This document shows, one piece after another, positions 53,347-58,289 of a stretch of 64,000 nucleotides of DNA (its first letter is position 1; each line of letters begins with the position of its first letter). The position numbers and the translations under genes are program-made. This stretch comes from Chromohalobacter marismortui (GTDB lineage Bacteria > Pseudomonadota > Gammaproteobacteria > Pseudomonadales > Halomonadaceae): the NCBI RefSeq assembly GCF_004364315.1, contig NZ_SOBR01000003.1:1-64000 (forward strand). Direction: 5' to 3'. The notes under the pieces were generated by a model. The model worked only from the letters and a program-made list of their open reading frames with translations, was not told the DNA's origin and did no database searches.

Positions 53347-53406
53347 CTAGAATGAGAATGATGCCCTGACCATGACGACCCGGAAGTTCGCATAATATAT
53401 ATTATG
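53347..53406. promoter_or_regulatory. Metalloregulator-like operator elements upstream of zur
   Basis: AGAATGAGAATGATG at 53350-53364 resembles partial Fur/Zur half-sites. CATAATATATATTATG at 53391-53406 is a perfect 16-base AT palindrome 93 bases before the regulator start, resembling the centre of a Zur box (TAATATATATTA). Neither site is proven; autoregulation is an inference. Confidence 0.45.
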
Positions 53407-53498
53407 TTAAATACACACCCTGTGATGCGGTGCGCATCTGGCTCCATCCCGGGCAACGGCGTAGAATGTCCCGCACTACCGAGAACGATGGTGTTGCG

Positions 53499-54770: not shown

Positions 54771-55181
54771 CTAGGCCGCTTGTTTTGCCACCGCATAGAT
54801 GCGATCAAGCATGGCATGCAAGCCATTGCTGCGCGTCGGTGACAGATGCTTGTCGAGCCCCAGCTCGGCCAGGAAATCCGGCGGCGTCGCGTGAATCTCG
54901 CTGGGCGGCCGGTCGTTGTAGATCCGCAACAGGACGGCGATCAATCCCGAGACGATGGCGGCATCGGACGTCGCCTCGAAGTGCAGTCGGCCATCCTCCA
55001 GGCGGTCGTGAATCCAGACATTGGACTGACAGCCCTGAATCTTGGTGTCATCGTTCTTCAACGACTCAGGGAATGTGGGCAACTGTTTGCCCATGTCGAT
55101 GATGTACTGATAACGATCCATCCAGTTGTCGAACATGGCGAACTCATCGGCCAGTTCGGCTTGTGCTTCGCGTGCTGTCAT
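54771..55181 (-). CDS. sufE: Cysteine desulfuration protein SufE
   Basis: Accepts sulfur from a cysteine desulfurase for Fe-S assembly. The sulfur-accepting cysteine C51 is at the same number as in E. coli SufE (KIQGCQSNVWI). 136 residues, start MTAREAQAEL at 55181 with GGAGGG just before. Downstream of the recombinase gene by 27 bases on the same strand, so it may be read from it. Confidence 0.93.
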   Translation of the reverse strand: MTAREAQAELADEFAMFDNWMDRYQYIIDMGKQLPTFPESLKNDDTKIQGCQSNVWIHDRLEDGRLHFEATSDAAIVSGLIAVLLRIYNDRPPSEIHATPPDFLAELGLDKHLSPTRSNGLHAMLDRIYAVAKQAA

Positions 55182-55208
55182 GCGCCCTCCTCGCAAATCG
55201 ATGCCTCA

Positions 55209-56414
55209 TTATAACGTGCCATCACTATGCGTGTCGGCGTCCGTGAGCCGGTGATGCGTCAATTGACGATACCACTCTTCGGCCTCCGCATGCAGATAGC
55301 GGGCCGTGGTATCCAGGCGCGCGTGGCGCGCGGTTCGCGCCAGGTAGCGTAACTCCACGCCGGCCTGTGCCTGATGCGTCAACGCAGTGTGACGCAACCA
55401 ATGAGGCGTGGCCTGTTGCAGCGGCGCACGCTTGGCTTCCGACAGGTCGTCAAGGGCATGATAGCCCGCACGAAATGTCTCGCGAATCATCCGATAAAGC
55501 TGGTTGTCACCTAGCCCGCGCCGGCCATCCAACGCCCGTAGCAGCGGCGCGGTATCGTCGGGGTCAGGCTGCGGCGACATGCCCAGCGTCATCCGCCAAT
55601 CCGCGAGCAGCGTCATCATATCCGGCGGCACCGGCACCTCGGACAGCTTGTCGCCCTTCCCCACGACCCGCCACCACCAGCGCCCTTCACGCTGTATGAA
55701 GTCACCCATCCGCGCAGTGGCCATCTCGCTGATCCGGGGCGCCAGCAGATAGGCAAAGCCGAACAAGAAGCGACGCCGCGCCCAACGATAATAGGCGCCG
55801 CTGCCTGACTGTGGAGACGGCGGGACTTGCAGCCATGCCCAGAAGTGCTGCCACAGCGTCTTTTCGATATAACGCTCGATACGTTCGTTGCGATTGTCCA
55901 TGCGTCGACGCTTGTCGCGGATCAAGCGAAACGGGTTATGCTCGACCCACCCTGCCTCGACCAGCCAGGCGAACATACCTTGCAGAATGACCAATGCCTG
56001 GCGCCGGCTGGACGCCGAAAGCGGCTGGCGGAACGGCCTCCACTCTAACGCATGCCGGGGCCGTGACGGCCCCTGCCACAACGCCGCCGGCTGCGGATCG
56101 GCCAGGAAGCGCTCATAGGCATCCAGCGTGTCACGCCGGACGTCACTTAATGCTTCACTGCGCCGCTGAAGCCACAGCAACAGACGCTCGGCTTCCTTGC
56201 GATAGGCGCGCCATGTCTGAGGACTCGACTGAAACTCGCTCAGCCAGGATGCAACGGCTTCCACATCGGTGCGCGCCGAGATATGCACTGCACGCCTCGC
56301 GCCGGGTTTCTCCAACTCCCCTGACGTTTGTGACGTTCTCGAGGCGGCCCCGGTTTCGAGCGCGACGATCGCTGCGATTTCTTCTTCACGCACCTGCCCC
56401 CTGTCGTCCTGCAT
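55209..56414 (-). CDS. Tyrosine recombinase, complete catalytic set
   Basis: A 401-residue site-specific recombinase of the integrase/XerCD superfamily. All catalytic residues are present: R227 (LLAPRISEM), K256 (GKGDKLSEV), H338 and R341 (HWLRHTALTH), H364 (ARHARLDTT) and Y373 (ARYLHA). An N-terminal core-binding SAM-like domain spans about 50-160, after an acidic 45-residue tail. No prophage, attachment site or cargo genes surround it. It is divergent from the KfrA-like gene across a repeat-rich spacer. Activity looks intact; target site unknown. Confidence 0.9.
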   Translation of the reverse strand: MQDDRGQVREEEIAAIVALETGAASRTSQTSGELEKPGARRAVHISARTDVEAVASWLSEFQSSPQTWRAYRKEAERLLLWLQRRSEALSDVRRDTLDAYERFLADPQPAALWQGPSRPRHALEWRPFRQPLSASSRRQALVILQGMFAWLVEAGWVEHNPFRLIRDKRRRMDNRNERIERYIEKTLWQHFWAWLQVPPSPQSGSGAYYRWARRRFLFGFAYLLAPRISEMATARMGDFIQREGRWWWRVVGKGDKLSEVPVPPDMMTLLADWRMTLGMSPQPDPDDTAPLLRALDGRRGLGDNQLYRMIRETFRAGYHALDDLSEAKRAPLQQATPHWLRHTALTHQAQAGVELRYLARTARHARLDTTARYLHAEAEEWYRQLTHHRLTDADTHSDGTL

Positions 56415-56423
56415 GACACCCCT

Positions 56424-56589
56424 GTGACGTCTCTGGTTCCGATTCCACGCAGTCTCGAATATTACGCCTATAAATTCAAGATAATGCGCGTAATCTTGAA
56501 TTTTTACCGCCTTTGATAATGTATTTTACGTAATATGTTTAATGTAATATTGCCATTCACCAGTAACGAGGTATGCTGTAAGACGTCAC
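56424..56589. promoter_or_regulatory. AT-rich spacer with nested inverted repeats
   Basis: Outer arms GTGACGTCT (56424-56432) and AGACGTCAC (56581-56589) are perfect inverted copies. Inside, AAATTCAAGAT (56472-56482) and ATCTTGAATTT (56493-56503) flank 10 bases. GTAAT or TTAC motifs recur at 56461, 56490, 56504, 56526 and 56544. The spacer is far more AT-rich than its surroundings. This may hold recombinase sites, the KfrA-like operator and both promoters. Confidence 0.65.
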
Positions 56590-56625
56590 CCACGCCCCCG
56601 TGGCGCCCAGCACAAAGGACTCGAC

Positions 56626-57591
56626 ATGGCCCGCAACGGCATTCAATACGAAGATGTACAGCGCGCGATCGACACGCTGCTGCGTCACGATGAGGCCCCG
56701 ACCGTTCAGAAAATTCGCGACATCCTGGGCACGGGAAGCTTCACGACCATCAGCGATCACTTGCGGGAATGGCGGCTAAGACGGGAACAGAACCGCGACG
56801 TCACCCCGAGCGAGGCACCGCCGGAAGCGTTACAGGCATGGATGACGGATCTCTGGGCAAAGGCCCAAGCGCTGGCGGCGGAGTCCCTGGCGCATTACCG
56901 TCAAGAAGCCGATCAACGTATTGAAGAAGCGCAAGCCGACGCCCAAGCCGCCGCGCGCAAGGCGGCGGACGCCGAGGAACGCCTCGCGGCGCTGAACACG
57001 CACTTTGAACAGGCCCAGGCGCGCCTGGAAGAAAAGACAATGCAACTGGCCAATGCGCAAAGCGAACTGCAAGCGGCCCATCAGCAGGAAACTCAGCAGG
57101 CACGGCGCGTGCAGCAACTCGATGAGGAATGCCAGAAACATCAGCGCCAGCTAGAAACCGCGCGCAGCGAGCATCGTGAGGCCATGGCAAAGCTCGGGCG
57201 TGAGCATCAAACCCAATTGAAGCAGGAAGAGCAACGCCACGAGGCAGCGGAAGCACGCTTGATGGGGCTTCTCGATGACGCGCGTCAAGAGCGCCAGAAT
57301 GTCGAAAAGCAGGCCCAAAAACGTACTGCGTCCCTGGAGCAGAAACTCGAGCGCATGCAATCCGAGCTCGCCGAGCAGCGCCGTCAGTACACGACGCTGG
57401 AAGAAAAGGCTCGCAGTGAAACCTCGCAGCGCCAGGCATTGGAAAGCAAGTTACGGGAGAGCCAAGGTCAACTAGAGCAAACGCAAAGCGACAACCGGCG
57501 CGCAGAGCGTGAGCTCGAGCAACAGCACGCCATCAATCGCGAGTTGCGCGAAAAGCTGGCGCGTCTGCCGCTACCCCCCTTCGTCGTCTAA
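56626..57591 (+). CDS. KfrA-like DNA-binding coiled-coil protein
   Basis: 321 residues. The N-terminal ~115 residues (IQYEDVQRAIDTLLRHDEAPTVQKIRDILGTGSFTTISDHL) match the KfrA_N DNA-binding domain of plasmid segregation-associated proteins; the remaining 200 are a long Gln/Glu/Arg-rich coiled coil. AAAGGA lies before ATG 56626. KfrA proteins bind their own promoter and form long rods. Paired with a divergent recombinase, it may organise DNA for recombination. Chromosomal; no replication gene nearby. Confidence 0.85.
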   Translation: MARNGIQYEDVQRAIDTLLRHDEAPTVQKIRDILGTGSFTTISDHLREWRLRREQNRDVTPSEAPPEALQAWMTDLWAKAQALAAESLAHYRQEADQRIEEAQADAQAAARKAADAEERLAALNTHFEQAQARLEEKTMQLANAQSELQAAHQQETQQARRVQQLDEECQKHQRQLETARSEHREAMAKLGREHQTQLKQEEQRHEAAEARLMGLLDDARQERQNVEKQAQKRTASLEQKLERMQSELAEQRRQYTTLEEKARSETSQRQALESKLRESQGQLEQTQSDNRRAERELEQQHAINRELREKLARLPLPPFVV

Positions 57592-57698: not shown

Positions 57699-58289
57699 TC
57701 AACGATAATAGGCATTGGTATCGTCGGTATGATCGGTCACGTCGCGGATACCTGCCAGTTCGGGCACACGCTCGACCAGCGTCTTCTCGACCCCGTCCTT
57801 GAGCGTTATATCGACCGCGGCACAGCCCTGGCAACCACCGCCGAACTGCAGCACGGCGACATTTTCTTCGGTCAATTGCATGAGGCGGATTTCGCCGCCG
57901 TGAGCCGCCAAGCCGGGGTTGATTTCGCTATAGAGCACGTAGTTGACGCGATCTTCGAGTGGGCTATCGGCATTGACCTTGGGCATCTTGGCATTGGGGG
58001 CCTTGATGGTCAGTTGGCCGCCCATGCGATCCGGGTTGAAGTCGACCACCGCTTCTTCGAGGAATGCAATGCTGTTTTTCTCGAGATAGACCGTGATCTT
58101 GTCCAGGTCGAGGCGCTCGTCGCTGGGCTCTTCCTCACCCGGCCGGCAGTAAGCCAGGCAGGTTTCGGCATACGGCGTGCCCGGCTGTGTGATGAAGATG
58201 CGCACCGCAATGCCTTCGACGTTCTGCTTGGCCAACAGCTCGGCAAGATACTCCTGAGCGTTGTCGGTAATCTGGATGGGCTGGCTCAT
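57699..58289 (-). CDS. nfuA: Fe-S biogenesis protein NfuA
   Basis: Fe-S cluster carrier with an N-terminal degenerate A-type domain and C-terminal Nfu domain. The cluster-binding CxxC is C153/C156 ([10 protein letters not shown]). 196 residues, normal. With sufE on the other side, two Fe-S genes bracket the recombinase/KfrA pair. Divergent from metH across 215 bases. Confidence 0.95.

Follow-up and report, generated by a model that had tools for sequence, protein, structure and literature searches.

A chromosomal recombinase-KfrA gene pair beside dif in Halomonadaceae: a probable single-recombinase Xer-type resolution system

The described system closest in kind to the locus reported here, judged from the sections of the paper open to us, is XerL/dif of the Legionellales (Nicholson et al. 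2022, PMC9765430). KfrA, as presented in the accessible parts of the plasmid literature, is an alpha-helical DNA-binding protein of IncP and IncU plasmids that autoregulates its promoter (PMC7414963; see also PMC10561277). Dimer resolution in large-chromosome bacteria that lack dif/Xer, such as Saccharophagus and Colwellia, was left open in the available text of Carnoy and Roten (PMC2731167). Here we analyze a 64,000-nucleotide stretch of Chromohalobacter marismortui (contig NZ_SOBR01000003.1, positions 1 to 64,000; hereafter the window), in which divergent genes encoding an Xer-type recombinase (INT) and a KfrA protein flank a dif-like site of their own. We conclude that the locus is probably a complete single-recombinase Xer-type resolution system lying beside XerCD/dif, with KfrA as the probable accessory protein. 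A search of the titles and abstract openings of open-licence PMC papers gave no description of an INT-KfrA pair or of a second dif in Halomonadaceae, nor of two resolution systems at one terminus.

INT (positions 55209 to 56414, minus strand) is a 401-residue Xer-type tyrosine recombinase that scored 51.6 bits against Pfam Phage_integrase (PF00589, cutoff 27.1) and fell under the family cutoffs of both XerC (68.9 versus 335 bits) and XerD (45.4 versus 329.6 bits). A first-pass annotation, made from the sequence alone, had reported six catalytic residues, and all of these (R227, K256, H338, R341, H364, and Y373) were found in the window protein. Upon alignment of 31 proteins (window INT, 26 relatives and four XerC/XerD proteins) five of the six were invariant and K256 was present in 29, with valine or alanine in two plasmid members. 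KfrA (56626 to 57591, plus strand) is a 321-residue protein in which a KfrA_N DNA-binding domain (PF11740, 82.8 bits, cutoff 26.1) is joined to a long predicted coiled coil, the remainder of the protein giving weak coiled-coil-type matches under cutoff. The two open reading frames, the domain composition of KfrA, the single spacer common to both divergent genes (211 bp) and the location between sufE and nfuA were all as that annotation had described them. It missed two elements of the spacer, a 28-bp site and KfrA-type repeats, and also a canonical dif at 53385 to 53412.

The 28-bp core site, ATTCAAGATAA-TGCGCG-TAATCTTGAAT (56474 to 56501, plus strand), is an inverted repeat of 11-6-11 build and the presumed site of INT recombination. 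Its arms are complementary at 10 of 11 positions, a level equalled in none of 100 shuffles of the spacer. We searched 61 Halomonadaceae genomes (the source genome plus 60 others; INT threshold E < 1e-80), of which 52 encode INT and 59 encode KfrA. With up to two mismatches allowed the core pattern matched in 49 of the 61 genomes, the reversed-pattern control matching in none. The site lay 109–308 bp from the kfrA start in 48 of the 52 INT-containing genomes, the 49th matching genome (G040) having its match elsewhere. The four INT-containing genomes without such a match all belong to genus g4, and G004, the sole one read, has a diverged 11-6-11 repeat. By the same pattern search the site was present at the locus in 0 of the 9 genomes lacking INT, and the seven genomes with KfrA only had no match anywhere. 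Hence, INT and the site are lost together. Nearly all family genomes carry a single core site on the contig of the locus; extra matches in six genomes were on small contigs (G033, G036, and G050) or were single weaker matches on chromosomal contigs (G030, G042, and G054), and the latter may be due to chance.

The repeat could instead be a mere operator for the two divergent promoters, bound by INT or by another protein with no recombination involved; its position within the promoter region common to both genes, with a largely constant spacing to the KfrA repeats, would suit this. We consider this quite improbable, however, given that the 11-6-11 build is identical to that of dif, that copies occur on plasmids where no INT-family gene was found, and that the catalytic residues are retained in all 12 family INT proteins aligned.

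Downstream of the core site are TACGTA-type repeats (56526 to 56551, plus strand), the presumed KfrA operator or accessory sequence. TTACGTA/TACGTAA occurs at just one place in the window, this being the spacer repeats. A terminus-wide organizing role for KfrA, like that of MatP, was thus unsupported within the window, with one such place per 64 kb. We measured the distance from the core to the first TACRT unit in 36 sequences, each a spacer or the region upstream of kfrA, five of them from a single genus; it was exactly 25 nt in 28 loci and 24 nt in one. The other seven comprised two spacers shortened by a long reading of INT, one diverged g4 site and four loci with 31–32 nt. The linker between core and first repeat has a mean identity of only 52%. 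This constancy of length with changing letters suggests that the core-bound and repeat-bound complexes touch each other or share a promoter. At the five KfrA-only loci read (of seven) sufE and kfrA are directly adjacent and the TACGTA repeats are retained upstream of kfrA, so the core travels with INT and the repeats travel with KfrA. In the window, sufE (54771 to 55196, minus strand; PF02657) flanks the locus at the INT side, as it lies near INT or KfrA in relatives, and nfuA (57699 to 58289, minus strand; PF01106/PF01521) at the KfrA side.

Co-occurrence in divergent orientation, a point raised by the first-pass annotation, was the rule within the family: INT and KfrA were adjacent and divergent in 47 of the 52 INT-containing genomes, divergent and 3.1–18.8 kb apart in four, and on different contigs in one. 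This pairing is not due to chance. Within-genus dN/dS ratios (10 pairs for each protein) were 0.125–0.198 for INT and 0.04–0.08 for KfrA; thus both proteins are under constraint, KfrA more so than INT. In a tree of 70 proteins the 12 family INT proteins formed one clade (support 99/94), XerC and XerD together formed one distant branch (100/99) with INT outside, and the KfrA-linked recombinases of other hosts were scattered. A set of Pseudomonadales proteins, which we call XerL-like because of their length, their dif habits and their Xer-less hosts, formed one more weakly supported group (93/71) with the INT clade outside it, in a tree that held no Legionella XerL. Deep branching order is uncertain owing to long branches, and a plasmid-derived origin of INT is therefore a reading and not a result.

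Five family genomes (G051, G018, G037, G016, and, with one gene, G013) have extra genes that separate INT from the core site. At L115–L119 (G016, G037, G018, and G051) 3–19 kb of ordinary-looking transport and metabolic genes, judged by the starts of their translations only, separate the two. In the four genomes with 3–19 kb between INT and kfrA, it is beside kfrA that the core is found. These genes, together with the relatives on plasmids, are what could be expected of a minimal mobile or cargo-capturing element. Of the explanations we weighed this is the most improbable: the inserted genes look metabolic or transport-related and have no two flanking sites, there is one site at the locus, INT is present in 52 of 61 genomes, and the family INT proteins form one clade. 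We set aside a cargo platform, as the intervening genes look metabolic and the site stays at the KfrA side. The first-pass annotation had come close with a two-gene system of possible chromosome-organizing function, which agrees with the conserved pair, its terminus position and its own dif-like site. Its other proposal, a minimal mobile element, is unsupported within the family, where we find a single clade, constrained INT sequences, one site per locus contig in nearly all genomes and no insertion ends.

The canonical XerCD dif site, AGTTCGCATAATATATATTATGTTAAAT (53385 to 53412, plus strand), has one mismatch to the dif pattern, is the single match in its genome at up to three mismatches, and lies 3.1 kb from the core site. 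It sits upstream of what we take to be a fur-type gene and downstream of a presumed ectC. GC skew in the window is weak, with a cumulative maximum at 48.5 kb and a fall thereafter, and dif and dnaA were therefore taken as the markers of the terminus. Among 15 INT-containing family genomes searched (of 52) dif was found in 14, at 3.1–36.5 kb from the core site; G022 had no dif by pattern. In KfrA-only family genomes dif was found in three of four searched, 3–8 kb from kfrA, the exception being G024. Of the 12 family genomes placed, 11 have the core site 0.44–0.497 of a chromosome length away from dnaA.

Outside the family we searched for dif in 65 chosen genomes that have an INT-like gene, a choice that covers part of the order's genomes of that kind. 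A pattern-recognizable dif was found in 14, and in 10 of these it was on the same contig as the INT-like gene and within 100 kb of it. In G221, G114, and G156 dif and the matched part of the gene were separated by 46, 43, and 63 bp, respectively, and in six further genomes the distance was 0.8–28 kb; in two of the 14 dif was on another contig. The pattern search found no dif in the other 51 of the 65 genomes, in which XerCD is absent or dif is too different. When DnaA was at the contig start the INT-like gene was at 0.47–0.50 in eight of nine non-family genomes, these eight having first been picked as central-looking; eight others (G133, G182, G200, G311, G420, G488, G094, and G779), whose first 4 kb lack DnaA, were left unplaced. 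In G302 two canonical-dif-like sites of opposite orientation (contig C1, 158083 and 187405) flank the INT-KfrA pair at about 14 kb on each side.

The source genome encodes XerD (357 bits, above cutoff) plus a second Xer protein (256 bits), which we take to be XerC and which the tree places together with XerD. XerD was above cutoff in 18 of 19 family genomes examined. The exception, G024 (L126), has KfrA only, lacks INT and a dif by pattern, and its best XerD match is just 2e-35. Across the order, we examined 194 Pseudomonadales genomes, seven from the same family (XerD at E ≤ 1e-45, INT/XerL-like match at ≤ 1e-15). XerD was missing from 48 of these, and an INT/XerL-like gene was present in 44 of the 48 versus 29 of the 146 genomes with XerD (odds ratio 44; Fisher 2e-19, a value that overstates the evidence because the genomes are related and kinship was uncorrected). 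The 44 genomes span 15 families. Of the four remaining XerD-less genomes, two (G071 and G214) have weak, broken matches and two (G117 and G149, 89% and 79% complete) have none. Outside the order, the best XerD matches of the INT- and KfrA-carrying genomes G272 and G341 were no stronger than 1.8e-20 and 2.8e-21, respectively.

Named members among the best 80 of 516 XerL-like loci include Marinomonas, Microbulbifer, Oleispira, and Thalassolituus. In these 80 loci (L185–L264) an upstream 11-6-11 repeat in which 10 or 11 positions pair was seen in 20, a count that has no shuffle control, and a canonical dif was near the gene in one, within the flanking stretch examined. The sequence CCGATA forms the core of 17 of the 20 repeats (Microbulbifer, Thalassomonas, Oleiphilaceae, and others), which indicates a different site specificity. 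At the XerL-like loci L032–L051, L053, and L054 no KfrA was found within about 1.5 kb on each side, some flanks being shorter at contig ends.

Copies of the core site also occur on plasmids and phage-like contigs. Copies with the chromosome's own central 6 bp were found on a 7.6-kb contig of G033 (C47) and on a 6.6-kb contig of G036 (C7) that encodes a Rep3 protein, and no INT was found on either. The core site of a further G036 contig (C6) is accompanied by a terminase and an integrase of another kind, with no INT in the 20 of 36.5 kb read. On G050 contig C29 (L158) the central 6 bp is one letter off that of the chromosome and no INT was found; this contig consists of a 3.75-kb plasmid-like unit present twice head to tail, either an assembly artefact or a real dimer. 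We also examined plasmids selected for similarity in Rep or KfrA. Among the five named Halomonas plasmids, the core site was found with two mismatches on pH149-1 and with three on pHAL40, both INT-free; it was missing from pHA020_1 and from the Bachu 37 plasmid, and the Y3 plasmid showed just a four-mismatch trace. Six Pseudomonas and Azotobacter plasmids of the same Rep type gave a best match of five mismatches, a level reached by shuffles. In a collection of 2.9 million viral contigs six match the degenerate core pattern exactly, among them L164 with Rep3 and the P22-like L160; some of the six may be chance matches. Two IMG/VR contigs (L160, 4683–4710; L161, 12680–12707) have the core followed by TACGTA-type repeats and no INT in the part read, and could possibly be phages that exploit the INT recombinase.

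Given this architecture, we propose that a like pair of INT molecules would occupy the two arms of the 28-bp site and recombine two copies of the site, with two sites per synapse, on the pattern of the XerS, XerH, and XerL systems. A dimeric chromosome, or a dimeric plasmid that carries the site, would be converted to monomers by INT recombination between its copies. Chromosomal resolution by INT would take place next to the XerCD dif at the terminus, giving Halomonadaceae two independent systems side by side, the second as a spare or alternative. KfrA would repress its own promoter through the TACGTA repeats and, bound at a set distance from the core, would probably restrain or direct recombination as an accessory protein. 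At cer, a plasmid site of the type on which the XerCD recombinase set is used, the corresponding accessory proteins are ArgR and PepA. The fixed spacing, together with the retention of KfrA beside the core, leads us to infer that KfrA helps recombination, and catalysis at the core site, dimer resolution, KfrA binding and any dependence on FtsK are likewise predictions from the layout of the locus. Because seven genomes without INT keep KfrA, a further function of KfrA is also suggested.

Several observations weigh against this assignment. INT is absent from 9 of the 61 family genomes, seven of which retain KfrA. With dif, XerD and a XerC-type protein all in place in the source genome, a second chromosomal system looks redundant. 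All seven plasmid-type copies of the site (L155–L158, L164, L265, and L267) lack a run of KfrA repeats and have at most one lone unit, so KfrA appears to be dispensable for some uses of the site. Proximity to dif within the family is largely one shared inheritance rather than 14 independent events. G023 has its site as well as its dif at 0.20 from dnaA. Outside the family dif is 93 kb from the INT-like gene in G190, and two f35 genomes, G185 and G094, have a distant relative separated from dif by 0.97 and about 0.94 Mb, respectively; measured from dnaA, the G185 gene is at 0.358 and its dif at 0.488. G185 and the way in which genomes were chosen make the resolution system slightly less likely.

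Relatives of the pair beyond Halomonadaceae bear on its origin. Seventeen non-family genomes had an INT match below 1e-34. KfrA_N was adjoining and divergent in six of these (G302, G438, G341, G272, G469, and G190), beside INT on the same strand in two (G498 and G476), about 8 kb off in one (G314), and not near in eight. Hence, the outcome that would have refuted the first-pass annotation, a lack of adjacency in other genomes, does not arise inside the family, and outside it the two genes are linked only in part. On three contigs of G498 (C44, C78, and C110) the KfrA_N genes are upstream of, and codirectional with, related recombinases rather than divergent. Replication or partition genes were found among none of the 10 neighbors of the module in G190, G272, and G302, and four of the 10 had no Pfam match. 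Relatives of the INT-KfrA pair are also present on plasmids of other hosts. The INT-site-KfrA modules of the G190 chromosome (L130) and of the Halioglobus plasmid pRR3-57 (L083) are sisters with short branches and an identical central 6 bp. A Rhodanobacter plasmid (L085, NZ_CP088926.1) has two divergent pairs of integrase and DNA-binding-protein genes about 3–4 kb apart (1–1131/1241–2179 and 4793–5779/5947–7110). A phage origin of INT was rejected: 2 of 50,697 phage records matched, both with less than 60% identity.

The plasmid relatives, the Halioglobus–G190 sister modules, the core site on some Halomonas plasmids and the intact XerCD/dif of the source genome would all fit a domesticated plasmid stability module, in which the INT-site-KfrA set of an old plasmid entered the chromosome near dif and now serves plasmids only, by resolving their multimers in trans, its terminus position being inherited synteny without any function for the chromosome. 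We regard this as unlikely, as other lineages likewise have relatives at the terminus, INT/XerL-like genes are associated with loss of XerD, and the site remains beside kfrA even where INT is 3–19 kb away. A chromosomal resolution system remains our preferred reading. A broader scheme, which we offer tentatively and rate a little below an even chance, has two independent dimer-resolution systems at one terminus and only a few kilobases from each other, XerCD/dif and a KfrA-regulated INT with a composite (core plus accessory) site; INT would belong to a plasmid-derived lineage whose XerL-like branch repeatedly replaced XerCD in Pseudomonadales and Legionellales, which would explain the genomes reported to lack Xer/dif.

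The tie between XerD loss and INT/XerL-like genes provides a testable answer to how dimers are resolved in large chromosomes without Xer, and the locus may be a living intermediate in a switch from XerCD to a single recombinase. The cer-like device on some Halomonas plasmids is relevant to vectors for industrial salt-tolerant hosts.

Comparison with known systems sets the locus apart from each. The TnpR subgroup of tyrosine recombinases, typified by Tn4401, is transposon-borne and carries DUF3701 according to the accessible part of a classification (PMC8138268); a Pfam search up to E 1 gave no DUF3701 match to INT. A low-identity INT match was given by 1710 plasmid records, 585 of them from Klebsiella, and the TnpR subgroup may be behind the Klebsiella ones. 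XerS/difSL and XerH/difH also pair one recombinase with a site near its gene, and in the accessible descriptions, which set them apart from INT, they are their hosts' system with no mention of KfrA (PMC9765430; PMC2731167). XerCD/dif shares the 28-bp 11-6-11 site and the use of one recombinase set on chromosome and plasmids (PMC9765430, in part), but has two recombinases and unlike arms, and INT falls outside its branch. The likeness to XerL/dif is closest: as far as the available sections of PMC9765430 describe it, there is a single recombinase (catalytic Y387 or Y389 in XerL, Y373 in INT), a terminus-proximal site whose inverted arms are long, a Coxiella recombinase on a plasmid beside its own copy of the site, and a site mimic carried by a mobile element. 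By the same sections, neither XerCD nor a canonical dif is known from Legionellales, whereas both are present here, and xerL of L. pneumophila is more than 400 kb from dif, whereas here the site is 59 bp from INT. The INT clade, moreover, lies outside the XerL-like group of Pseudomonadales, a comparison without a Legionella sequence, and INT has a KfrA partner. Unlike plasmid KfrA, that partner is encoded on the chromosome and linked to a recombinase with its own site, and the locus offers a chromosomal role for KfrA.

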